A DNA stretch of 46,998 nucleotides from a bacterium (lineage in GTDB: Bacteria > Planctomycetota > Planctomycetia > Planctomycetales > Planctomycetaceae). How positions within the stretch are numbered: position 1 is the stretch's first letter; each line of letters starts with the position of its first letter. Below the pieces are notes generated by a model. It ran no database searches and was not told the origin of the DNA. It worked only from the letters and a program-made list of their open reading frames with translations. The translations under genes were made by a program, and so were the position numbers. This document shows, one piece after another, positions 16,729 to 46,998 of this stretch. The stretch is taken from the NCBI GenBank assembly GCA_016124895.1, contig WGMU01000138.1:1-46998 (forward strand). Direction: 5' to 3'.

Positions 16729-18066
16729 TCACTTCACGCGGACCTGCTGTCCGTCTTTCAGGCTGCCGAGCTGCCCGGCGGCAACGCGAGCCGAGTCATC
16801 CAGGCCACTGAGAATCTCGATCTGCTTCCCGTCATCAAATCCGGTGACCACGGAAACGAGCTTGATCGCACTGTTGCCATCCACCAGGCAGACGGTGCTG
16901 TGACCGGTCTCGTCGAAGCGTACTGCTGTTGCCGGGAGCGCCAGAGCATTCGGAGTTTCCTGCAGAGTGATCGTGGCTTCGGCATACATCCCTGGCAGCA
17001 GCAGACCGTCCTCGTTCGGCAGGTCGACTTCCGCCAGCATCGCTCGCGTCGATTCGTCGAGACGCCGCGCGATCCGGCTGATCTTTCCGGTCAACGTGCG
17101 GCCGGGAAGAGACCTCACGTTCAGCGAGACTGGATCACCCACGTTCGCAATCGCCGCTTCATTTTCCGGCAGGTCGATATGGACGCGCATCCGGTCCACC
17201 TGAGCGACTGAAAACAAAGAGCTTCCAGCCACCGGTCCCGAGGTATCGTTCTTCCGGACCAGGTCGCCGGGATCGACGTTGCGCCGAGTGACAACGCCGT
17301 CGAATGGAGCAGTCAGCGCCGCGTAGCTCAGCATGGCCTGCTGTTCTTCGAGCGCCTTGCGGGCGACGTCAGTGTCGGCCTGAGCGGCAGTCAGACTGGC
17401 CTGAGCCACCGCGTAACGTTCGCGAGCGACCGTGACCGCGGCTTTGGCCGATTCGAGAGCGGCCTCTGCGGACGTCTTCTTTGACGTGGCCGACTCGAAC
17501 TTCTGACGCGATTCATCGAGCAATCGTGCGGCGACGGACTTTGAATTCACGAGATCCGTCACACGGTCAAACTCAGCTTTGGCTGCCGTTAACTCGGCGA
17601 CGGCAGAACCGACATCAGCCGCAGTCTCATTCGCCATCGCCTGAGCCGACTGGACATCAGCAGCAGCGAGCTTGACAGCGGCGACCGCCCGTTCGGCTTC
17701 CGCCTGCAGCCGACGAATCGTTGCCTCCTGTTTCTCATACGCCGCCTTCAGCTCGGGCACAGCGATCCGGCCCAACACGTCGCCACTCGACACCTTGTCG
17801 CCTATATCAACGTTGAGTTCCGCCAGGTAGCCAGCCACGCGGCCGTGGATTTCCGCCTCGTACCAGGCAAATACGGTCGCCGGCTGCGTCGTGATGCGAG
17901 TGATCGTCGCGCGTGTCGGCGTCACGACGTCAACGACCGGCTTCTGATCCGCAGCCGACTTCGCAACGGCTGTTGACTCAGCCTGATTGCAGCCACTGAC
18001 GGAAACGGCCAGGACAATACCCAGCCCACCGGAGACGACGCGTGACACAACAGAAAATGAGTTCAT
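16729..18066 (-). CDS. RND efflux periplasmic adaptor (membrane fusion lipoprotein)
   Basis: A 445-aa protein. A lipoprotein signal ends in SVSGC (Cys about 26), so it is anchored to a membrane by lipid. The order is barrel-sandwich hybrid (lipoyl-like) half with AEIHGRVAGYLAELNVDIGDKV; a long Ala/Glu/Lys-rich coiled-coil hairpin (about 108-230); the second lipoyl half with LTAPFDGVVTRRNVDPGDLV; beta-barrel with VSLNVRSLPGRTLTGKISRI; and a C-terminal membrane-proximal domain. It bridges the RND pump and an outer-membrane TolC-like channel. The coiled coil is long, as in adaptors that reach a TolC. AGGAG (18073-18077 on the complement) lies 6 nt before the ATG and abuts a palindrome at 18078-18094. 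It is the first gene of the pump operon. Confidence 0.92.
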   Translation of the reverse strand: MNSFSVVSRVVSGGLGIVLAVSVSGCNQAESTAVAKSAADQKPVVDVVTPTRATITRITTQPATVFAWYEAEIHGRVAGYLAELNVDIGDKVSSGDVLGRIAVPELKAAYEKQEATIRRLQAEAERAVAAVKLAAADVQSAQAMANETAADVGSAVAELTAAKAEFDRVTDLVNSKSVAARLLDESRQKFESATSKKTSAEAALESAKAAVTVARERYAVAQASLTAAQADTDVARKALEEQQAMLSYAALTAPFDGVVTRRNVDPGDLVRKNDTSGPVAGSSLFSVAQVDRMRVHIDLPENEAAIANVGDPVSLNVRSLPGRTLTGKISRIARRLDESTRAMLAEVDLPNEDGLLLPGMYAEATITLQETPNALALPATAVRFDETGHSTVCLVDGNSAIKLVSVVTGFDDGKQIEILSGLDDSARVAAGQLGSLKDGQQVRVK

Positions 18067-38696: not shown

Positions 38697-38976
38697 GTGT
38701 TGCCTGGATTATGATTCACAGGACTTCCGGCCATTGGCTTCAGGACAGACACACCCTCGCCGCCCACTCGTTCTCCGCAGCCAGCTCTCGTCTGGCCAGC
38801 ACAGGCAGAGCACCCAGTTATCGAACTGTTGCGGAAGGCGCCGGAAGTCGTAAGGTTCTGTGAGAGTGCTGAGGCCCGGCTCGCTACCGGGACTCACCCG
38901 CCTTGGCCGCACTTGAATCTGTCCCGAAGCAAGAATCTTCTGGCTGGAATTGACGTAAGTCGTTTCTGTGTAAAGT

Positions 38977-39021
38977 ACGCCCGGAGGGATTCGAACCCCC
39001 GACCGTCGGATTAGAAATCCG
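38977..39021 (-). repeat. Left att copy: 3' part of tRNA-Arg(UCU)
   Basis: Read on the minus strand this contains an anticodon arm with loop TTTCTAA (anticodon TCT), the variable region, a T-arm with loop TTCGAAT, and acceptor strand CGGGCGT. It is identical to 46637-46681. The next base to the right (39022) still fits tRNA position 27 (T27-A43 pair), but no D-arm or 5' acceptor strand follows, so this is not an intact tRNA gene. Confidence 0.85.
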
Positions 39022-39318
39022 ACTTCATCGACGGATGAAAACGCCACAAGCAGCGAACACACGGACGCTTACAGCGACAGCGAACCGAACACCGATTACG
39101 GCGCGCAGCAGAAAGCGCAGCACTTTGGCGACGGTGACGCAGCACTGCACGACGACAGCGGGCATTCCGGACGAACGGCAGAATCTTCGGATCAAAGCGG
39201 AAACGACGCCGCGTTGCGGTTGCTGGCCGAAGTCTGGAGCGAGCGGCCGGACGGAGTGCGGGATCAGATTCTGCGGCTCGCTGACGACGCTCTGGACGCT
39301 ATGAGGTGTCAGGACTGA
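39022..39318 (+). CDS. Orphaned C-terminal 98 codons of the integrase (joined in the circular form)
   Basis: This open frame continues directly from the left repeat in the same frame in which the integrase reads the right repeat, and stops with TGA at 39316-39318. It has no start near its 5' end: a TAA lies in frame just before the repeat (38971-38973). It codes for an acidic, Ser/Asp/Asn/Gln-rich linker (TSSTDENATSSEHTDAYSDS...) and then an amphipathic helical piece, RLLAEVWSERPDGVRDQIL with RLADDALDAM. Joining the two repeats, as in excision, gives one 536-codon integrase gene (423 + 15 + 98). In the integrated state shown here it cannot be expressed as part of the integrase. Confidence 0.65.
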   Translation, partial: TSSTDENATSSEHTDAYSDSEPNTDYGAQQKAQHFGDGDAALHDDSGHSGRTAESSDQSGNDAALRLLAEVWSERPDGVRDQILRLADDALDAMRCQD

Positions 39319-39919
39319 ACTCAGCCGGCATCCGTGATGCGCCGGAACGCTGACAGCCGCCGCAGAGCCCGGCAAGACGACGCAGCAGGCAGCAGAAAAC
39401 CGGCAGGGGGTGGGGGGACCTGGAAAGAAAGAGTGTCCCCACAGGCCACTGTTCGGCTGGAAGTCTCCGGGATAAAGGCCAGGAAGGACCCGCGGCCGTG
39501 GCGGTTGCCCTGTCGGGTCCTCCGGATTCTGCAGTCCGTCCGCGGTTCTGATATCGCGCCGTTTTGGTGCAAACCCAGCTTTCAAAACTCACTTTCTTTC
39601 TTTCCTCCCGTTCCGCTGCCGTCCTGCCGGTGCTCGCCGTTCACGGCGCCGGGTCCTCCTGCGGGTGCCGGCGCGCCGCGGTTAACGCATCGCGCCGCAT
39701 CCACACGCTCGGAGTTTCTGAGGGGGGGCAGCATCATCAGGTTGCGTCGGTCGGTCTGCCGATTGCTTCGATGCGGCTGGAAGTGAACGTAGACTGCCGG
39801 TTCGGGTTGCCGGTTGTGGCTGATCACCGCACTGGCCGAAGCGGACCGGGTGAGCTGTCGTGTTTGTTTCCTTCGCGCGATGGCTGCCCGGACCGGCCCG
39901 ACACAGAAGGAAACCGGCG
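39319..39919. other. About 600 bp without a confident gene
   Basis: This holds G-runs (around 39400-39420), a pyrimidine tract (about 39590-39612) and short ORFs on both strands without family features. It separates the integrase tail from the large orphan gene and may contain the promoter or an origin; no iterons were recognised here. AGAAGGA at 39905-39911 is the ribosome-binding site for the next gene. Confidence 0.4.
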
Positions 39920-42265
39920 ATGCACGTAACGCAGCCAGATGCCGCCGCCATGCAGTTGGTGCGGGATGAGTTCAAGGCTCTCTGGGCTCAGGTCGCGTCT
40001 GAGATCGACAAGGCATTCCAGCGAGCGGATCCAAGTCGGCATTCAGCCATCGAAGCGGTCAAACAAACCGCCCTCAGTCTCAAGTGCTCCATCGAACAAA
40101 TCCACATTGCCCGGACGGCGCCCATCGAAGGCGGCGACAGGATGGGGTGGAGATCGCAGCACTTCGCGAGTTCTCAGACGCAGGCCGATTTGCTGGAGCA
40201 CTACCGAAAGCAGCAGGAAGGCAGCGACGAAGAAAACCCGTTTCTGCACCAGACCTACTACACCGAGACGGAACCGTGGCGCGAGACTTCGGCCTGGTAT
40301 CTCACGAAGCACGTCATCCGACTGCTTTTCCGGGCTCGATTCGCGCACGAGAAACTGCTCAAGGATTCGGCGCTTTCGGCGTTGTTCTCAGTTCACAAAC
40401 GCCCGCACGAAACAGTCCGATTCGGTGGCGTCTGGGGCAATCCATCGTGGGTCCGTCTGCTCAAGGATCTGGCAATCGACCAGTGCTACCGGCTGGCCGG
40501 GAATCGGTTTTACGAAGACGTGGTCATCACGGCAGATGACTACGACGCGATCAACGCCGCGTTCGACGAAGTGCCGGAACTCAACTACGCAGCAAAGCTG
40601 GCCGGAACCGATGCTGAAAATGTGCCTGCGAGTCTGCAATCTGTCGAATTGCATGACTCTGACGGCATCGCTTTCCCGGATTTCTACCCCGACGGATCAG
40701 ATACTGAAACATTGCACGTTTTCACTGTTCGACTGCGTGAGTTCTCCAGGACCGCGCTCTCGCTTTTCACCGGAAGACGTGATGATGATCGGGGCGAATG
40801 CCTCCGCGAACTGTCAGCGTTGCATCGCGATATTCAGTCCCGCATTGATACGGGAATTGAGCGACTGCTGAGCCCAGATATCGACAATCCGGCTGCCTGG
40901 CTTGTCAGTGTCACCGAAGCCGTCGCAACGATTCAATCCGATGCGACACGTGGCCGTCGACCCGATGATGTGGTCGATCGTATCAAGGCCATTGATCGGG
41001 CTGTCGATCAGTTGGGTGTCATTGAACGGCTGCAGAAGACTCGCCGCAGTCTTGTTCCGGAAGTTCAAGACCGCGAGTTGCGTCCGATTGACCTGGAAGC
41101 GTTGCGCGACGACTGGCGAGCGTTTCTCGACTGCGGCGATTTGCTGGCCGGGTCCGTCGAACGCCTGTTTCAGGCCGGAATGGAAGTAGCGGGAACGGAG
41201 AAACGCTCTGACTCGCTGGTTCTGGAAGTGCTCGCGCAGCGATGCGCACCGCGCGTCTGCGAATGCTGGCAGCCTGTGTTCGATGCGTTCGACCGAATGC
41301 GACAGGCACTGGAAACCGTGCGAGCCCGTCTCCGTTTCGGGCACGTCGAATACATCAATGCGAAGCCGGAAGTCCGGGACCGGCTGCGACGCCGCTGGAA
41401 CGAAGTCCAGCAGTGCTGGCGGAACAACTTCGCAGACGATCGGATGCGCGGCGACGCTCAGTCGCTACTGCACTGGTGCAACGGCATCCGCCCGTATCTG
41501 CGTCGCACGCTCCTGTCAGCCGATGAGGCTGCTGAGTCGCCCATCAAGCGGAATGCGCTGTCTCCGCCACAGTGGACATTAAGTGTCAGCCCCGAAGAAC
41601 TGACACGTTTGGAAAACCATCCCTACGCCAAACATCTCGCGAAGCAAATGCAGGAGAGTTCGTTGGACTCAACACCGGAATGGCAACAGCTAAAACACTT
41701 CCTCCATTTCTACGTTGGCACGGCTCACGAAGTTCCTGTCTGGACCAAGTGGATTGAGATTCGTAGTTGCACGGAATCGGAACGTGCGACTCTGAAGCGT
41801 CAGGCCGAAGAGGAAGGACTGACTTGGGATAATGTATTCCCGCGGCAACGATTAAAGATTCTCCGTGCCTTTGTTGCCGTGAACGGAATCGAATCTCCGC
41901 CGGATGAAAGTGACAGTTTCCAGTCAGACGGCGTGCCGCTCGGAATTCCGGAAACCGGCCAGCCGCCGACCGATTTCGATGACAAACTCGACTCTGTTCG
42001 ACAACTCCCCGAACGGATTCAGCTTGCGTACGGGCAGTGGCTCTATGCAAAACAAGAGCTGACGACAGAAGACGGCGGGCAGCCTGAAGACCGCGAAGCG
42101 TATTCGTTCCTGCAGGAAGAACGGCCGGAGCATCTTGGCGACTTGAAGCCGTTCGACACTTGGACGCGCTACATCCGCATGGCGCGAAAGACACTTGGAA
42201 CAAACAAGCATCACGCGCGAGCTGGGCGTTCCGGGCGGAGCGTGATTCCGTCAGATGAGACCTGA
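39920..42265 (+). CDS. Large orphan protein carried by the element
   Basis: A 781-aa, mostly helical, hydrophilic protein with no signal peptide or TM segment. It starts at ATG 39920 behind AGAAGGA; an upstream in-frame GTG at 39860 is less likely. The N-terminal 130 residues include KQTALSLKCSIEQIHIART. Middle parts are rich in Arg/Asp/Glu and Trp (DDWRAFLDCGDLLAGSVERL, RLRRRWNEVQQCWRNNFADD). The C-terminus has a compact block, IQLAYGQWLYAKQELTTEDG then FDTWTRYIRMARKTLG, ending in a basic AGRSGRS tail that could bind nucleic acid. No catalytic motif is recognised. As the largest gene of the element it may be its cargo (a defence or regulatory factor) or a replication/packaging factor. No function is assigned. 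Confidence 0.75.
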   Translation: MHVTQPDAAAMQLVRDEFKALWAQVASEIDKAFQRADPSRHSAIEAVKQTALSLKCSIEQIHIARTAPIEGGDRMGWRSQHFASSQTQADLLEHYRKQQEGSDEENPFLHQTYYTETEPWRETSAWYLTKHVIRLLFRARFAHEKLLKDSALSALFSVHKRPHETVRFGGVWGNPSWVRLLKDLAIDQCYRLAGNRFYEDVVITADDYDAINAAFDEVPELNYAAKLAGTDAENVPASLQSVELHDSDGIAFPDFYPDGSDTETLHVFTVRLREFSRTALSLFTGRRDDDRGECLRELSALHRDIQSRIDTGIERLLSPDIDNPAAWLVSVTEAVATIQSDATRGRRPDDVVDRIKAIDRAVDQLGVIERLQKTRRSLVPEVQDRELRPIDLEALRDDWRAFLDCGDLLAGSVERLFQAGMEVAGTEKRSDSLVLEVLAQRCAPRVCECWQPVFDAFDRMRQALETVRARLRFGHVEYINAKPEVRDRLRRRWNEVQQCWRNNFADDRMRGDAQSLLHWCNGIRPYLRRTLLSADEAAESPIKRNALSPPQWTLSVSPEELTRLENHPYAKHLAKQMQESSLDSTPEWQQLKHFLHFYVGTAHEVPVWTKWIEIRSCTESERATLKRQAEEEGLTWDNVFPRQRLKILRAFVAVNGIESPPDESDSFQSDGVPLGIPETGQPPTDFDDKLDSVRQLPERIQLAYGQWLYAKQELTTEDGGQPEDREAYSFLQEERPEHLGDLKPFDTWTRYIRMARKTLGTNKHHARAGRSGRSVIPSDET

Positions 42266-42269
42266 GCGG

Positions 42270-42389
42270 GCATCCGGTCTGACATCCGCTTTGCTGCACC
42301 GGATTTTCTGAGATTCTTTCCGGCACAGAAACTCCGTGGATCATCGCAGATTCCGGTGAAATCAGTCGGCATCCGGTGCATCCGGTCTG
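42270..42389. promoter_or_regulatory. Repeated GCATCCGGT boxes upstream of the first HTH gene
   Basis: GCATCCGGT occurs at 42270-42278, 42369-42377 and 42378-42386, the last two in direct tandem; two of them extend to GCATCCGGTCTG. TGCACCGGAT (42295-42304) is the exact reverse complement of 42371-42380. Such clustered short repeats before a small HTH gene suggest binding sites for an excisionase/regulator or iterons for replication. Confidence 0.5.
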
Positions 42390-42439
42390 TGGATATTGAC
42401 GCTCACGCGACACACCACACACCGATGCAGGGGATTGCG

Positions 42440-42628
42440 ATGACAACGGAACTGCTGACGCCCGCACAACTCGCCGAACGCCTGCAGGTGCGACGCTCGA
42501 CGGTGATTCACTGGGCACGGACCGGACGCATTCCAGAAGTGCGCATCACGTCGAAGGTGAGACGATTTGATTTCGGCGAAGTCGTGGCCGCGCTACGTGA
42601 CCGACAGCGGGGAATTCAGCCAGCCTGA
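42440..42628 (+). CDS. AlpA/MerR-like helix-turn-helix protein (excisionase family)
   Basis: A 62-aa protein: LLTPAQLAERLQVRRSTVIH, then WARTGRIPEVRI and RRFDFGEVVAAL. This is the helix-turn-helix_17/excisionase fold that binds DNA next to att or promoter sites of integrated elements. The start is ATG 42440 with AGGGG a few bases upstream; the longer in-frame version lacks support. The GCATCCGGT boxes lie directly upstream. It probably controls excision or the expression of the genes behind it. Confidence 0.8.
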   Translation: MTTELLTPAQLAERLQVRRSTVIHWARTGRIPEVRITSKVRRFDFGEVVAALRDRQRGIQPA

Positions 42629-42646
42629 GTGGTCAGCGCATGAAAA

Positions 42647-42666
42647 CGGCCAGCCGAGGCTGGCCG
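42647..42666 (+). terminator. Stem-loop after the first HTH gene
   Basis: CGGCCAGC, loop CGAG and GCTGGCCG form a perfect 8-bp hairpin followed by CTTT. It lies 19 bp after the stop, in the position of a terminator. Confidence 0.5.
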
Positions 42667-42730
42667 CTTTGGGAACTCACACGCCCGACGCCGCTTCTCA
42701 CACGATGCGTCGGGCACGGAGGTTAGTCAG

Positions 42731-43765
42731 GTGGCACATTCTAACTCTGTCAGCTCGCGGCCGGGAGTGGCTGCTACGCAAAAACGCGGCGCCGCGTACC
42801 CGAAACGGACGCCGTTCTTCTTTCACCGTTACACGCGGTGGCTGATCAAGACCTGCGCCGCAAATCTGATAACGGCCGACGGTTGCTGGTTGCTGGCGAC
42901 GATCGCAGCGACTGAGGACAGCCGTCGGTATCGATCGGCCGTCAGCTTCTACAACGCTCAGCTTGCCGCGATGTGTGGCTGGTCGGTCGACAAGTTGGAC
43001 CGTGTCCGCCGCCGCTGCATTGATGAGGGGTACCTCCACTATGAGCCCGGAGGGAACCGCACTCCCGGCCTGTATTGGGCACTCGTCAGCGACGGGCTCT
43101 CTGACCTGGCGGACGCTGGACCGATCGGCGAACTCGAAACGGATTTCAGTCCGCAATCTGCGGAACATCCTGCGGACGATTCCACGACCGAACCGCGGAC
43201 AACCTGCGGAGAGAACCGCGACGAAACCGCCGATCTATCGTACCTGTCCCCTTCCCGGAATCCTTCCCCTCCCCTCCGGGAACATTCTGAGACTCTGATA
43301 TCTGGAACTTCGCACGCTACCGGCATCGAATGGCAGGAGGTGGAGGGGGCTCTTGTTGAGACAGGACTGGCGGACGCAGCCGGGACGGCTCGCGCCGCCC
43401 GTGACCGCGGGTACTCGCCGGGGCAGGTTCTGGAACTGGTCGCAGAGTTCGACCGTCGACGGTCCGAGTTTGCCAGCGAGGGCGCGCTTGCCTGGCGGAT
43501 CGTGAAGTCGCCACCAACGCGACCAGTGGCTGACGGCTGGCCGGGGCAGGCATCAACGAAGCCGCCGGTTGATGAGCAAAGCCGCGAAGCTGATCGGCTG
43601 GAGCGGCTGTTCGGGGCAGACCTCGCGAGGCTGTCACCGACTCGACTCAAAGAACTGGCCGCGCAGGCCGGACTCAAACCCGCTGACGAAATTGACCGCA
43701 CGGTGCGGTCGGTCCGGATCCCGCTGTTGCGGCAACTGGCGCGGAATGCGTCCGAAGCCGCCTGA
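42731..43765 (+). CDS. Winged-helix-type protein, possible replication/regulatory protein of the element
   Basis: A 344-aa protein starting with GTG at 42731 behind GGAGG (42718-42722). Residues about 15-110 look like a winged-helix DNA-binding domain: FHRYTRWLIKTCAANLITAD, a helix LLATIAATEDSRRY, then AQLAAMCGWSVDKLDRVRRR and a wing GYLHYEPGGNRTPGLYW. The middle is polar and low in structure (Thr/Glu/Ser/Pro-rich). The C-terminus has helices with RLSPTRLKELAAQAGLKP. DnaD/replication-initiator N-domains have a similar outline, but the match is by eye. It leads a run of same-strand genes (43.8-45.1 kb) toward the integrase. Confidence 0.65.
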   Translation: MAHSNSVSSRPGVAATQKRGAAYPKRTPFFFHRYTRWLIKTCAANLITADGCWLLATIAATEDSRRYRSAVSFYNAQLAAMCGWSVDKLDRVRRRCIDEGYLHYEPGGNRTPGLYWALVSDGLSDLADAGPIGELETDFSPQSAEHPADDSTTEPRTTCGENRDETADLSYLSPSRNPSPPLREHSETLISGTSHATGIEWQEVEGALVETGLADAAGTARAARDRGYSPGQVLELVAEFDRRRSEFASEGALAWRIVKSPPTRPVADGWPGQASTKPPVDEQSREADRLERLFGADLARLSPTRLKELAAQAGLKPADEIDRTVRSVRIPLLRQLARNASEAA

Positions 43766-43781
43766 CTGATGAGGTTGTGAA

Positions 43782-44195
43782 ATGAATCACAGACCGCTTT
43801 TCCCTGACGAGTCAGACGGGCAGCCAGCCGGCAGTCCGTCGGAAGCATCGAAGCCGCCGAAGTCGAAGCCGTATGGCGTGCCGCACAACGGCAGCCAGAC
43901 GAGCCGCGACGCGGCCGAACGCATCGCGCCCGTGGCGTCGGCTCAGGCCGCTCGCGTGCTGGTGTTCATCGCTCAGCAAGGCGACGACGGCGCGACGGAT
44001 CACGAAGTGCAGAACGCACTCGGTATGACGGGTGACAGCGAGCGCCCGCGGCGCTGGTCGCTGCAGCGTGCCGGGCTGATTCGAGACTCAGGCCAGCGTC
44101 GCCAGTCGCCCGCGGGGCGAGCTGCCATCGTCTGGATAGCAACAGACGCCGCACTGCTGGCTGGGGCATCGCCGAAACAACGGCAGGCCAGTTGA
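43782..44195 (+). CDS. Small winged-helix-like protein
   Basis: A 137-aa protein. The first 60 residues are Pro/Ser/Lys-rich. Then QAARVLVFIAQQGDDGATDH, EVQNALGMTGDSERPRRWSL and QRAGLIRDSGQRRQSPAGRA follow, with VWIAT at the end of the domain. The pattern is that of a short helix-turn-helix often seen in phages and integrated elements, whose duty is unknown. It starts 16 bp after the preceding stop and is probably co-transcribed. Confidence 0.7.
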   Translation: MNHRPLFPDESDGQPAGSPSEASKPPKSKPYGVPHNGSQTSRDAAERIAPVASAQAARVLVFIAQQGDDGATDHEVQNALGMTGDSERPRRWSLQRAGLIRDSGQRRQSPAGRAAIVWIATDAALLAGASPKQRQAS

Positions 44196-44207
44196 TAGGA
44201 GGTCATC

Positions 44208-44372
44208 TTGAGAACGGAATCTCACAACCAGCCAATCCGCGGACCGCCGCCTATCGCGTTCGCACTAAGCATCGAACCGGGCAGACAGTCGGCACGGTGC
44301 CGGCGCCCGAAAAGCAAACCGGCCGATGAGAGCTCAATCCTCATCGACCGGCGAACCACTGAGCCCGATTGA
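44208..44372 (+). CDS. Small TTG-start ORF with a strong Shine-Dalgarno
   Basis: A 54-codon frame starting TTG at 44208, 5 nt after a perfect AGGAGG (44197-44202). It ends at TGA 44370-44372, inside a terminator hairpin. The product begins MRTESHNQPIRGPPPIAFAL and is basic, without a known motif. The ribosome-binding site is the best in the element, which is the main support. It could be a leader peptide for the csrA-like gene. Confidence 0.45.
   Translation: MRTESHNQPIRGPPPIAFALSIEPGRQSARCRRPKSKPADESSILIDRRTTEPD
44319..44351. repeat. Inverted repeat in the csrA leader
   Basis: CCGGCCGATGAG (44319-44330) and CTCATCGACCGG (44340-44351) pair over 12 positions with a single G-U/mismatch and a 9-nt loop. 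It precedes the terminator and could compete with it or act as a CsrA/regulator target. Confidence 0.45.
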
Positions 44373-44386
44373 ACGGGCTCCCTTTT
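44361..44386 (+). terminator. Intrinsic terminator just before the csrA-like gene
   Basis: GAGCCCG, a 6-nt loop ATTGAA, and CGGGCTC form a perfect 7-bp stem followed by CCTTTT. It overlaps the stop codon of the small ORF and lies 17 bp before the csrA-like ATG, so transcripts may end here or read through conditionally. Confidence 0.65.
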
Positions 44387-44402
44387 CACGGAGGGCAGTT
44401 TC

Positions 44403-44819
44403 ATGCCTTTGACCATTTCGCGAAAGCCCGGTGAAACAATCCGGGTTTCTGATTCTGTTGTGATCACGGTTCTCGAATGCCGCCGGGGGCGGGCTCGGCT
44501 CAGTATCGACGCTCCGGACGGTTTCACGATCGTCCGCGGTGAACTCGACAGCGAGCCCGATGACTCGGACGCGGGAGACTCCGGCGCCGGTCACTCCAGC
44601 CGGGGCGGTTTGACTCCGCGGGATGGCCGTTCGACGCGTCGCCAGCGACGCGGGCGGCCGAAGCCGGGACGCGCCCGGATGCGATCGGCTCTGGCCGTGA
44701 TGCCGACAGCCCTGCCGCCGCTGGCGGAACGCTGCGACGCACTCGCCCGCTGGGTTCTGCGCCGCCGTGCCGCTCGACGCGGTGACGACTTCGGACTGTC
44801 CGGCGCTCTGGCTGCCTGA
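44403..44819 (+). CDS. CsrA-like RNA-binding protein with an Arg-rich C-terminal extension
   Basis: A 138-aa protein. The first 50 residues are a CsrA domain: MPLTISRKPGETIRVSDSVV, ITVLECRRGRARLSIDAP, then FTIVRGEL. It keeps the LxISRKPGE strand and the Arg of the V-x-R-x-E segment that contacts GGA motifs in mRNA. The C-terminal 88 residues (acidic/Ser linker, then many Arg and a helical end ERCDALARWVLRRRAARRGD) are not part of normal CsrA (about 60-70 aa). GGAGG at 44390-44394 is the ribosome-binding site. In bacteria CsrA is a dimeric post-transcriptional regulator of translation and mRNA decay; here it may control element genes or host mRNAs. Confidence 0.82.
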   Translation: MPLTISRKPGETIRVSDSVVITVLECRRGRARLSIDAPDGFTIVRGELDSEPDDSDAGDSGAGHSSRGGLTPRDGRSTRRQRRGRPKPGRARMRSALAVMPTALPPLAERCDALARWVLRRRAARRGDDFGLSGALAA

Positions 44820-44909
44820 CGGTTTCGAGCTGTTGTGACTCTGCCCGCGCCGGCATCGTGTGCGGCGCTGGCTCTTCTCTCAAACCTCATTCGGATTGGA
44901 AACCGATCG

Positions 44910-45110
44910 ATGATCAGTCAGACCGAAGAACCCCGCACGTTGCAGCCGCTGCTGACGACTCAGGAAGCGGCCGATGTGCTCCGCATTTCGCTGCGAACGC
45001 TCTGGACACTGACGCAGGAGGGCGAGATCCCATCCGTCCGAGTCGGGCGGAGTGTGCGCTACGATCAGACAGACCTGGCCGACTGGATCGCGTCCCGCAA
45101 GACGGCGTGA
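44910..45110 (+). CDS. Second excisionase-type helix-turn-helix protein
   Basis: A 66-aa protein: LLTTQEAADVLRISLRTLWT, then LTQEGEIPSVRVGRSVRYDQ and TDLADWIASRKT. This is the DNA-binding helix-turn-helix_17 (excisionase family) fold in full. The start at ATG 44910 gives a normal short N-terminus. It lies 258 bp before the integrase and is the usual candidate for its recombination directionality factor (excisionase). Confidence 0.85.
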   Translation: MISQTEEPRTLQPLLTTQEAADVLRISLRTLWTLTQEGEIPSVRVGRSVRYDQTDLADWIASRKTA

Positions 45111-45192
45111 ACGCAGAAAGCAACTGGAAGAACGTACGTTGCTGCGTTTGCAGGATGCTGCGACGCATTGCCCGAAATGAAACTGCCGCTCT

Positions 45193-45212
45193 CAGCCGGC
45201 AAGTGCCGGCTG
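45193..45212 (+). repeat. Perfect stem-loop in the integrase leader
   Basis: CAGCCGGC, loop AAGT, and GCCGGCTG form an 8-bp hairpin 80 bp after the excisionase-like stop. There is no T-tract. Confidence 0.45.
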
Positions 45213-45299
45213 GCGTGCATCATCGGTCGTCTGAGGACTCTCAGCCGGGGCAATCGATGCTTCGCGTTGCGGTGGATTGCTGGAGTGAGGTATCAAAAC

Positions 45300-45337
45300 G
45301 CGAGCCGCCGGGAAGTGTGGAAGCCCCGACGGCTCGC
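45300..45337 (+). promoter_or_regulatory. Stem-loop with two GGA motifs before the integrase start
   Basis: GCGAGCCG (45300-45307) and CGGCTCGC (45330-45337) form an 8-bp stem; the loop contains two GGAAG motifs. It lies 30 bp before the integrase GTG. GGA in a hairpin loop is the recognition feature of CsrA proteins, and a CsrA-like gene lies 500 bp upstream, but the link is inference. Confidence 0.4.
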
Positions 45338-45340
45338 TCA

Positions 45341-45366
45341 GGTAACACCAACCGAAAGGTAACACC
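45341..45366 (+). repeat. Direct repeat GGTAACACC at the integrase start
   Basis: GGTAACACC occurs at 45341-45349 and 45358-45366, 17 bp apart, just before the GTG start at 45368. It could be an operator or simply cover the ribosome-binding site (GAAAGG at 45354-45359). Confidence 0.4.
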
Positions 45367-45367
45367 G

Positions 45368-46864
45368 GTGGCGAGCATCACAAAACTCGGCAGTGGCAAG
45401 CAGCCACCCCGCGCAATCGACTTTGTCGACGCAGACGAAAACGGACGCCGGAAGCGGAAACGGGTTCGTCTCGGCATCGTGACGCATCGCGAAGCTCTGG
45501 AAGCGAAGCTGCGGATTGAGAAGCTGTTGACCGCCAAGCGGCTGAATCAGTCGATCGACGCGGAAACCGCCGCCTGGCTCGCAGGCGTGTCTGATGACAT
45601 CCACGAGAAGATTGCCCGTCACGGGCTCTGTGAACCTCGCGTGCCGGAACCGACCTGCCCGACGCTGCGGGAGTGGATCGATACGTTTCTCGACGAAAAG
45701 CAGCACACAGTGAAGGCATCCAGCCTGCTGCGTCTGCGACAGACAGCGGAACGGCTGGCCGGCTCGCTGGGTGAGCAATCCCGGCTGAATGAGATCACGA
45801 CAGCCGAAACTGCTGCCTGGCGGGCGTCGATGCTGGCTGAGGAACTGGCGGAAGCGACCGTCCGTCTGCACTGCCGCAACGCGAAGACCATTTTCGCCGA
45901 AGCCGTCGACCGGGAACTGATCGCTCGAAACCCGTGCGGGAAACTGAAGAGCGCGACCATCGCCGCGAACCGGGACCGGTTCATCACGGCGGAAGAAACG
46001 GTGGCACTGCTGGACGCGGCGCCGAATCTTCAATGGAGACTGCTGATCGCTCTCGGAAGGCTCGCCGGTCTGCGGGTTCCGTCCGAGTCGCATCTCCTGA
46101 AGTGGGGGCACGTTGATTGGGAACGGTCACGATTGCAGGTCTACGCTCCGAAGACTGATCAGACGCGGTTCGTTCCGGCCGTTCCCGAACTACTGGAACT
46201 GCTGCGCGAGGGATACGACAGAGCCGCCGACGGCGAGTCTGACATCATCACACTGAGCCGCCGCAACCTGCAGCGGAATCTGAACGTGATTGCGAGGCGG
46301 GCAGGCGTGGCGCCATGGCCGGCGCCTTGGCAGACGCTGCGACGGTCTGCTGAGACAATGTTCGCGATGAAGTACCCGCAGCACGCTGTCAGTGGGTGGA
46401 TCGGTCACAGCGTCGCGGTCAGCTTGAAGCACTACGTTCAGACGCCTGAATCAGTCGTCGCTCAGGCGTCGTCTGAGCACGCGCTAAGCGCAGCAGAAAG
46501 CGCAGCAGAAACCCGCGGCAACGGCTCGAAATCGCCTGAAACGAGTTCCGGGGCGAAAGTGACGGTCAGAGCCGGGGCGAACGAAAAAGCCGCAGAATGC
46601 TGGGGAAAACAGCACTCTGCGGCGGATTGCGAAGGCACGCCCGGAGGGATTCGAACCCCCGACCGTCGGATTAGAAATCCGCTGCAACGCTCCCGTGGGA
46701 TTTGTCGAAACCGATTTCTGTTCCGCGACTTACGTCGACGCGACGCCTCGATTCAACCTGCGAAACTTTCGATCTTTTACACGCATTTTGCGGCGATTGG
46801 AAGGTTTCTGTACCCGATTCTGTACCGGCAAACGAGTCTGAAACGGGTGATGCAATGCGTTTGA
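45368..46864 (+). CDS. Tyrosine integrase, 3' end altered by integration
   Basis: A 498-codon frame in the integrated state, starting GTG at 45368 (product begins MASITKLGSGKQ). An N-terminal arm-binding and SAM-like region (TCPTLREWIDTFLDEKQHTV) precedes the catalytic domain. The catalytic set is R236 in AGLRVPSE, Q322-x-x-R325 in PWQTLRRS (His-II replaced by Gln), H347 in WIGHS and nucleophile Y356 in KHYVQT. The His-II change is as in planctomycete integrases of this type. After residue 423 the frame crosses the 45-bp repeat (15 residues, TPGGIRTPDRRIRNP, the antisense reading of a tRNA T-arm) and then 60 residues of flanking DNA (to 46864). In the circular form the repeat would instead be followed by the 98-residue tail at 39022-39318. 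It catalyses site-specific integration and, with an excisionase, excision. Confidence 0.88.
   Translation: MASITKLGSGKQPPRAIDFVDADENGRRKRKRVRLGIVTHREALEAKLRIEKLLTAKRLNQSIDAETAAWLAGVSDDIHEKIARHGLCEPRVPEPTCPTLREWIDTFLDEKQHTVKASSLLRLRQTAERLAGSLGEQSRLNEITTAETAAWRASMLAEELAEATVRLHCRNAKTIFAEAVDRELIARNPCGKLKSATIAANRDRFITAEETVALLDAAPNLQWRLLIALGRLAGLRVPSESHLLKWGHVDWERSRLQVYAPKTDQTRFVPAVPELLELLREGYDRAADGESDIITLSRRNLQRNLNVIARRAGVAPWPAPWQTLRRSAETMFAMKYPQHAVSGWIGHSVAVSLKHYVQTPESVVAQASSEHALSAAESAAETRGNGSKSPETSSGAKVTVRAGANEKAAECWGKQHSAADCEGTPGGIRTPDRRIRNPLQRSRGICRNRFLFRDLRRRDASIQPAKLSIFYTHFAAIGRFLYPILYRQTSLKRVMQCV
46637..46681 (-). repeat. Right att copy: 3' part of tRNA-Arg(UCU)
   Basis: Identical to 38977-39021 over 45 bp. 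It lies inside the integrase reading frame. On the minus strand a tRNA 5' half would have to follow to the right (from 46682), but the sequence there lacks a D-arm and the complementary acceptor strand, and tRNA position 27 is G, which does not pair with A43. Confidence 0.85.
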
Positions 46865-46998
46865 CGAACCGGTCAATGATGCAACCATCGCCAATCAGAA
46901 GACCGTCGGTTCCGAAGACCGACTTCGACTGGCGGAAGTCTGAGATGAAGGTTTTCGAATTCTGCGGATGACACGGTTCCTGATCGCCGGAAAAACGA
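46682..46998. other. Flank to the right of the element, no gene recognised
   Basis: The integrase frame stays open to 46864. Another short frame (46702-46971) has no family feature. This could be host DNA, the left arm of a further tandem element, or decayed element DNA. Confidence 0.4.

Follow-up and report, generated by a model that had tools for sequence, protein, structure and literature searches.

Integrase genes that run into an antisense tRNA and a swappable C-terminal tail in a family of planctomycete elements

Can an integrative element carry its attachment site within the gene for its own integrase, and thereby give the enzyme a different C-terminus on integration? The question is raised by a 46,998-nt contig of a member of the Planctomycetaceae (WGMU01000138.1, assembly GCA_016124895.1; this whole stretch is called the window below), in which two 45-bp direct copies delimit a 7.66-kb element whose tyrosine-type integrase gene reads on through the right copy (Table 1). 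An earlier note, made from the sequence alone, had proposed that attP, the attachment site of the circular form, lies within this gene and that recombination replaces the end of the protein. On recomputation the 45-bp copies are 100% identical, with adjoining bases that differ on both sides, and the integrase frame, 423 codons from its start, reads the right copy as 15 codons (TPGGIRTPDRRIRNP) and continues for 60 flank-derived codons in the integrated state. Past the left copy, the same frame stays free of stops for 98 codons, to a stop ending at 39318, and joining the copies in silico yields a 536-codon integrase with zero internal stops. All of this agrees with the earlier note except for one detail: the TAA placed directly against the left repeat lies one codon upstream of it, in frame (TAA AGT ACG).

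The 98 open codons on their own are weak evidence, as 11% of 20,000 sequences generated by a dinucleotide model of the same stretch are equally open by chance; we rate the joined frame above chance because of the family data, not because of this openness alone. The protein is a tyrosine recombinase, matching PF00589 above the cut-off, and R231, K262, R325 and Y356, which we take to be the catalytic residues of the window integrase, are invariant in 25 aligned members.

The repeat derives from a transfer RNA (tRNA) gene. Its minus strand corresponds to the anticodon arm and 3' half of tRNA-Arg(UCU), so the peptide TPGGIRTPDRRIRNP is antisense tRNA; the Rfam tRNA model matches above its cut-off at the left copy, and the intact tRNA-Arg(tct) region of a sister genome is 90–91% identical to the window over 53–61 bp. 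Relatives share this arrangement. The integrase core was matched in 38 of 59 genomes, the window's own included, at E 1e-10, and at least 560 of 591 pattern matches in a public genome set encode an integrase relative; the best 80 of these, sorted by record title, fall into 75 from planctomycete groups, 2 named just 'bacterium' and 3 with other names (L158, L201, L210; loci and contigs carry our L and C numbers). Plasmid records gave no match at E 1e-6, and phage records gave only 9 partial matches, below or near 30% identity. We examined 141 integrase open reading frames (ORFs), comprising the window's and those of L074–L128 and L143–L222 (the best 80 fetched from the public set), of which 131 are distinct when compared over the 200 nt leading up to the end of the catalytic match. 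An antisense tRNA lies within 600 nt in 105 of the 131: 91 ORFs stop inside it, 5 run through it and 9 stop before it, and 2 further ORFs run off the contig. Integrase C-termini such as GLEPPTSSL are read from antisense tRNA.

To find what lies at the other end of these elements, we searched 63 loci, each with 2 kb or more of upstream sequence and an integrase ORF entering a tRNA, for exact DNA repeats, 14 nt or longer and anchored at the tRNA 3' end, making no use of tail sequence. A far-end repeat was found in 15 of them (14 at 15 nt or more), and joining the frame through it gave an in-phase open tail of about 57–105 codons in 14 of these 15 elements, compared with just 2 of 30 for the other two frames at 55 codons or more. 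With the window included, integrases enter the tRNA in varied phases (8, 7 and 1 of 16 elements), and despite this the tail stays in phase in 15 of 16. In 13 of the 15 tails a tryptophan is followed, three residues on, by proline or a hydrophobic residue (L182, from Adhaeretor mobilis HG15A2, and L190 lack this), the shared form being W..L[PS]. In L100, a 16-nt repeat was judged a chance match and set aside. We also excluded L078, on contig C20, which holds an integrase, a tRNA-Sec 3' fragment and a tail-like ORF, since its tail is in another frame; perhaps two elements are joined there.

The tail might instead be an independent small gene at the element's other end that is in phase by accident. 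It is indeed an ORF at the element's end, and ATG, GTG or TTG stands ahead of the motif in 11 of 15 tails, with ATG in 5; but these candidate starts are scattered in position, four of the 15 tails have none, and in 14 of 15 elements the frame of the tail matches that of the integrase. We regard this explanation as very improbable, and it is largely refuted by naturally fused genes.

Such genes came from 46 loci of viral-contig relatives. One contig, L279, has a 123-bp end overlap and closes to a circle of 7,314 bp; across the junction runs a 531-codon integrase ORF that contains, in order, the catalytic domain, an arm repeat, a T-arm-like core, the same arm repeat and the tail. To judge from its sequence, this is the predicted circle form. 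The earlier note's proposal of an attP inside the integrase gene, with exchange of the C-terminus on integration, is supported by the family together with these uninterrupted genes, among them that of the 7.3-kb circle. The tail profile also matches within the integrase's own ORF in 7 viral loci, representing five distinct long genes: L258, L264 (end shared with L265), L267 (with L268), L275 and L303 (with L287, which has the same end and for which the tail match was not listed). ARAGORN found no antisense tRNA behind these five genes; in L264, Rfam reports an opposite-strand tRNA that lies 325 nt past the integrase. Integrase ORFs that end in or at an antisense tRNA are found among viral contigs as well, in L259, L261 and L272; the remaining viral loci, some of them truncated by contig ends, gave neither result in these tests. 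A scan of the viral contigs with a single tail as query found nothing. In two further loci, L148 and L179, an inner integrase reads through the tRNA core into the tail of the neighbouring element, and a second integrase and a tRNA-Glu lie some 10 kb further along; judging from this layout, the two loci look like tandem arrays.

The tail varies as a protein-coding sequence does. With 17 tails aligned ungapped at the tryptophan, and the tryptophan column omitted, pairwise differences relative to codon-shuffled controls were 0.856, 0.697 and 0.985 at codon positions 1, 2 and 3, a pattern that argues for protein-level constraint on the tail in the joined frame (L182, which has no tryptophan, was left out, and in L112, which has two, the first was chosen by hand). 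We quote the ungapped alignment because an earlier protein-guided version, which gave the same picture, was partly circular. Leave-one-out profiles recognised 15 of the 17 tails at E 0.006 or better among 34,848 ORFs; the tail of L097 reached 7.5 bits (E 6.2). A profile that includes the window tail (A4) matches in 39 of the 59 genomes, the window's own among them. When the tail profile was searched blind to integrases, it returned 30 loci, of which 10 were training tails and 20 were new; 14 of the new loci have a T-loop-like core 60–210 nt ahead of the tryptophan, and in all 14 core and tail share one open frame; 6 have no such core. The T-loop pattern was present in 826 of 8000 trials on random stretches of the same loci, and the comparison is to be read with the caveat that the 60–210 nt range was chosen after an earlier look at such loci, the pattern itself having been carried over unchanged.

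An AlphaFold2 model of the natural long protein of L179 (486 residues, the N-terminus being cut by the locus; mean predicted local distance difference test score, pLDDT, of 80.7) has an ordered catalytic part, a stretch from residue 357 to 444 below 50 pLDDT, and a tail of two helices, 449–460 and 463–481, with ten-residue means of 82–93 over 451–480. The fold resembles XerA, Tn1549 Int and lambda Int. In this model, the attachment-site DNA encodes a disordered, flexible linker and the swapped piece is predicted to be a separate, small two-helix hairpin domain. Such flexibility would let the linker tolerate a tRNA-derived stretch.

The core is often flanked by arm-like repeats. In the window, a perfect 20-nt repeat has one copy on each side of the core, inside the coding frame. 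Among the 16 elements, matches to a motif, GCAGAATCCGGTGCA, at 12 of 15 positions or better follow the core by no more than 86 nt in 10 elements and precede it in 8, mostly about 106–153 nt ahead of the tRNA, against a background of 5 occurrences in 122 kb of element interior. At 11 of 15 positions it lies on both sides in 9 of 16 elements, the window included; the motif was selected from these same elements, and the window copies match at just 11 of 15. We infer from these positions that the repeats are probably integrase arm sites. They would also account for two recurring peptides, AESGA and AQNPVQ, which represent one DNA sequence in different reading frames.

These repeats bear on a second alternative, in which constraint on attP as DNA (core and arms) keeps the frame open, the tail does nothing as a protein, and the exchange is an incidental, neutral consequence of packing integrase and attP into one compact module. 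Arm-like repeats inside the coding frame would explain the AESGA and AQNPVQ peptides on this account too, and the linker is predicted to be disordered; however, the conserved hairpin is encoded past the right arm, substitutions in its codons are most frequent at third positions and rarest at second positions, the single model made predicts a confident fold for it, and the phase is kept in 14 of 15 mapped elements. We consider a purely DNA-level explanation unlikely.

At the level of sequence, the comparisons demonstrate how the genes are built and that relatives repeat this design, that the tail is under selection as a joined-frame protein, and that genes in both states occur naturally. The explanation that fits best, and that we hold with considerable confidence, is that the window carries a tRNA-type element in its integrated, perhaps decayed form, with attP inside the integrase gene and a tail swap that would alter the enzyme according to the element's state. 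Several observations weigh against it. The window tail reached only 9.6 bits (E 1.2) in the leave-one-out search of the 34,848 ORFs, and as sole query in the 59 genomes it matched its own genome and, weakly, one other; it is, on sequence, a divergent member of the family, whose place rests on position, phase and motif. The 48 of 63 loci in which the far-end repeat was missing also count here, possibly owing to contig ends, the fetch limit or divergence, as do the candidate start codons inside the tails. No tail was recognised by profile, in or joined to the integrase, in 38 of the 46 viral loci (some are cut by contig ends); 24 of the 131 integrase ORFs, the window's among them, have no tRNA within 600 nt; and 4 of 16 elements have GCAGAATCCGGTGCA on neither side at 11 of 15 positions. 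In L089 the integrase stops directly before the core, and in L190 (Lacipirellula limnantheis) the core repeat is present and the joined frame gives 8 codons, with no in-phase tail. The earlier note had named complete integrases of related elements that stop before or inside the repeat, or homologues of 39022–39318 in an unrelated protein, as grounds for rejecting its claim; such cases exist as a minority, namely the 9 of 131 ORFs that stop before a nearby tRNA and, among the 15 mapped elements, L190 with no matching tail.

The state of the window copy is a separate matter. An integrative element in a tRNA gene has an intact tRNA at one end and a 3' fragment at the other, and the window has 3' fragments at both ends: ARAGORN found no intact tRNA in the window, and no tRNA 5' half was found to the right of the right copy. 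The copy may for this reason be unable to move, a further point against the favoured explanation. Neither a DNA search nor a pattern search of the whole genome found another canonical tRNA-Arg(UCU). The sole ARAGORN candidate, which we rejected, is an atypical tRNA-Arg(tct), the only other one in the genome, within a cluster of 14 densely packed tRNA genes of unusual sequence on one strand (L069, contig C84, 8681–11720). Sequence similar to the right flank occurs downstream of two other integrases in the same genome, and the contig ends 317 bp beyond the right copy. These points favour a relic, that is, a rearranged or secondary-site insertion whose chromosomal form is dead and in which no switch operates, an account that is compatible with the family-level explanation. 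Against it stand the identity of the two 45-bp copies, an integrase frame without interruption and arm-like repeats that match perfectly, which together suggest a recent event. We give the relic a substantial chance, somewhat short of even; with its divergent tail and no tRNA 5' half, the copy may, on sequence grounds, be derelict.

Several flanking similarities were noted. The 99 bp at 46900–46998 are identical to contig C34, where they lie downstream of an integrase fragment and an apparent tRNA-Arg(CCG) 3' half, and the 52 bp at 46776–46827 are 83% identical to contig C44, there also downstream of an integrase. The left flank (38918–38976) resembles sequence directly downstream of tRNA-His on C148 and of tRNA-Arg(ACG) on C176; on C176, an ORF with a weak integrase-profile match starts directly behind the tRNA-Arg(ACG). 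Among integrase ends elsewhere, the frames entering tRNA-Sec in L078 and L074 (contig C154) end at a TGA complementary to the UCA anticodon, and those of L090, L111 and L156 terminate near this point. In L080 (contig C101; stop at 17805 in reversed orientation), which has no tRNA within 600 nt, the integrase ORF extends into a helix-turn-helix-like stretch, RAALARFLGVSRARVTQVLKRL.

Table 1. Features of the element and its attachment sites in the window
Feature	Position	Strand	Basis
Tyrosine-type integrase up to the attachment core	45368..46636	+	GTG start, 423 codons; aligned Tyr = residue 356; PF00589 E 9.8e-11, PF13102 E 1.6e-5
Right attachment copy, antisense 3' half of tRNA-Arg(UCU)	46637..46681	+	identity to 38977-39021; sister-genome tRNA-Arg(tct)
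Flank-derived C-terminus of the integrated state, 60 codons and stop; not a tRNA 5' half	46682..46864	+	ARAGORN: no tRNA
Left attachment copy	38977..39021	+	Rfam tRNA match 38976-39038, minus strand, 32.1 bits
Swapped C-terminal tail, 98 codons and stop, motif LAEVWSERPDGVRDQIL	39022..39318	+	leave-one-out tail profile 9.6 bits
Left arm-like 20-nt repeat, within integrase coding region	46488..46507	+	perfect match to 39103-39122
Right arm-like 20-nt repeat, within tail coding region	39103..39122	+	perfect match to 46488-46507
Small HTH_17/excisionase-family protein upstream of integrase; candidate directionality factor	44835..45110	+	PF12728 E 6.6e-16; TIGR01764 E 3e-13
Second HTH_17 protein	42356..42628	+	PF12728 E 8.3e-9
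Protein with N-terminal CsrA domain; possible element-borne regulator	44403..44819	+	PF02599 E 1.9e-13
801-codon ORF	39860..42265	+	no match in Pfam or NCBIfam

We propose that attP would consist of the tRNA-derived core between two arm-like sites, all within one open frame. In the circle, the gene would encode a long integrase, with catalytic domain, disordered linker and conserved hairpin tail. Recombination with a tRNA gene would break the frame at the core and strand the tail at the element's far end, separated from the integrase start, and the chromosomal integrase would gain a short substitute, usually a few antisense-tRNA residues ending inside the tRNA. Loss of the tail in the chromosome could then damp or redirect recombination until the small excisionase-like protein, or another signal, triggers excision and the long form is restored. 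By analogy with the phage Mx8, both proteins would be made, the long form would be proficient for integration, and the tail swap may control the direction of recombination. We offer more tentatively, as an idea that stands below even chances, that planctomycete integrases as a class sense their integration state, the hairpin licensing integration when it is joined in the circle or beside a second element. If so, an inner integrase that regains its neighbour's tail, as in L148 and L179, could let arrays grow or shed members in order.

The closest parallel is the Myxococcus phage Mx8. Passages of PMC4701971 and PMC6070905 describe an attP within int, with integration swapping a 112-residue C-terminus for 13 residues (IntP to IntX), and an integrated-form enzyme that is less active. 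As in Mx8, the window's attachment site lies inside the integrase coding sequence, 3' of the catalytic tyrosine, and integration gives a new C-terminus; Mx8 has a small excisionase gene, uoi, directly upstream of and overlapping int, and the window has a helix-turn-helix, excisionase-family protein upstream of its integrase. Mx8 int even appears, by eye, to read through an antisense T-arm-like stretch (STGLEPV), in which Rfam gave no tRNA match. The family integrase profile scored 20 bits on Mx8 Int, in the core-binding part alone, and the tail profile did not match it, so that a homologous tail, as common descent would predict, was not seen. A second parallel concerns archaeal integrases of the SSV type, which, in the part of PMC8371274 that treats them, have attachment sites of 40–50 bp inside the gene, often within tRNA genes. 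In that type, integration divides the gene and severs the catalytic part from the rest, whereas here the catalytic part stays whole upstream of the core and the tail alone changes, and we rejected an SSV-type split for the window. Passages of PMC4701971 also describe streptococcal integrative and conjugative elements in rumA whose attR lies within a serine-integrase gene, the excised form differing in length and C-terminus; they differ from the window's family in using a serine recombinase and a protein-coding target, with no tRNA. In regarding swapped tails in bacterial integrases as little described, the earlier note overlooks Mx8, Mx9 and the rumA elements. It had also named phages with attP inside the repressor gene as a parallel. 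In phages with integration-dependent immunity, integration truncates the phage gene that carries attP; the gene cut there is the repressor, and in the window's family it is the integrase. In what was accessible of the open-licence literature, the matches listed include Mx8, Mx9, the SSV type and the rumA elements and no account of a planctomycete family of this design. What is new is the family-wide version with a conserved swapped domain, the tail swap itself being already known from Mx8.

Mx8 and Mx9 are single phages, and what looked like a single-phage curiosity is apparently how the integrases of a large planctomycete family are usually built, with a conserved domain that can be swapped. 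It would explain two kinds of oddity in these genomes: integrase ends of the GLEPPTS type, which are often taken for annotation errors, would be antisense tRNA, and orphan ORFs with a WPxLP motif at element ends would be integrase tails. As the long and the short form are each encoded by natural genes, how an integrase learns the state of its element becomes testable on two versions of one enzyme.

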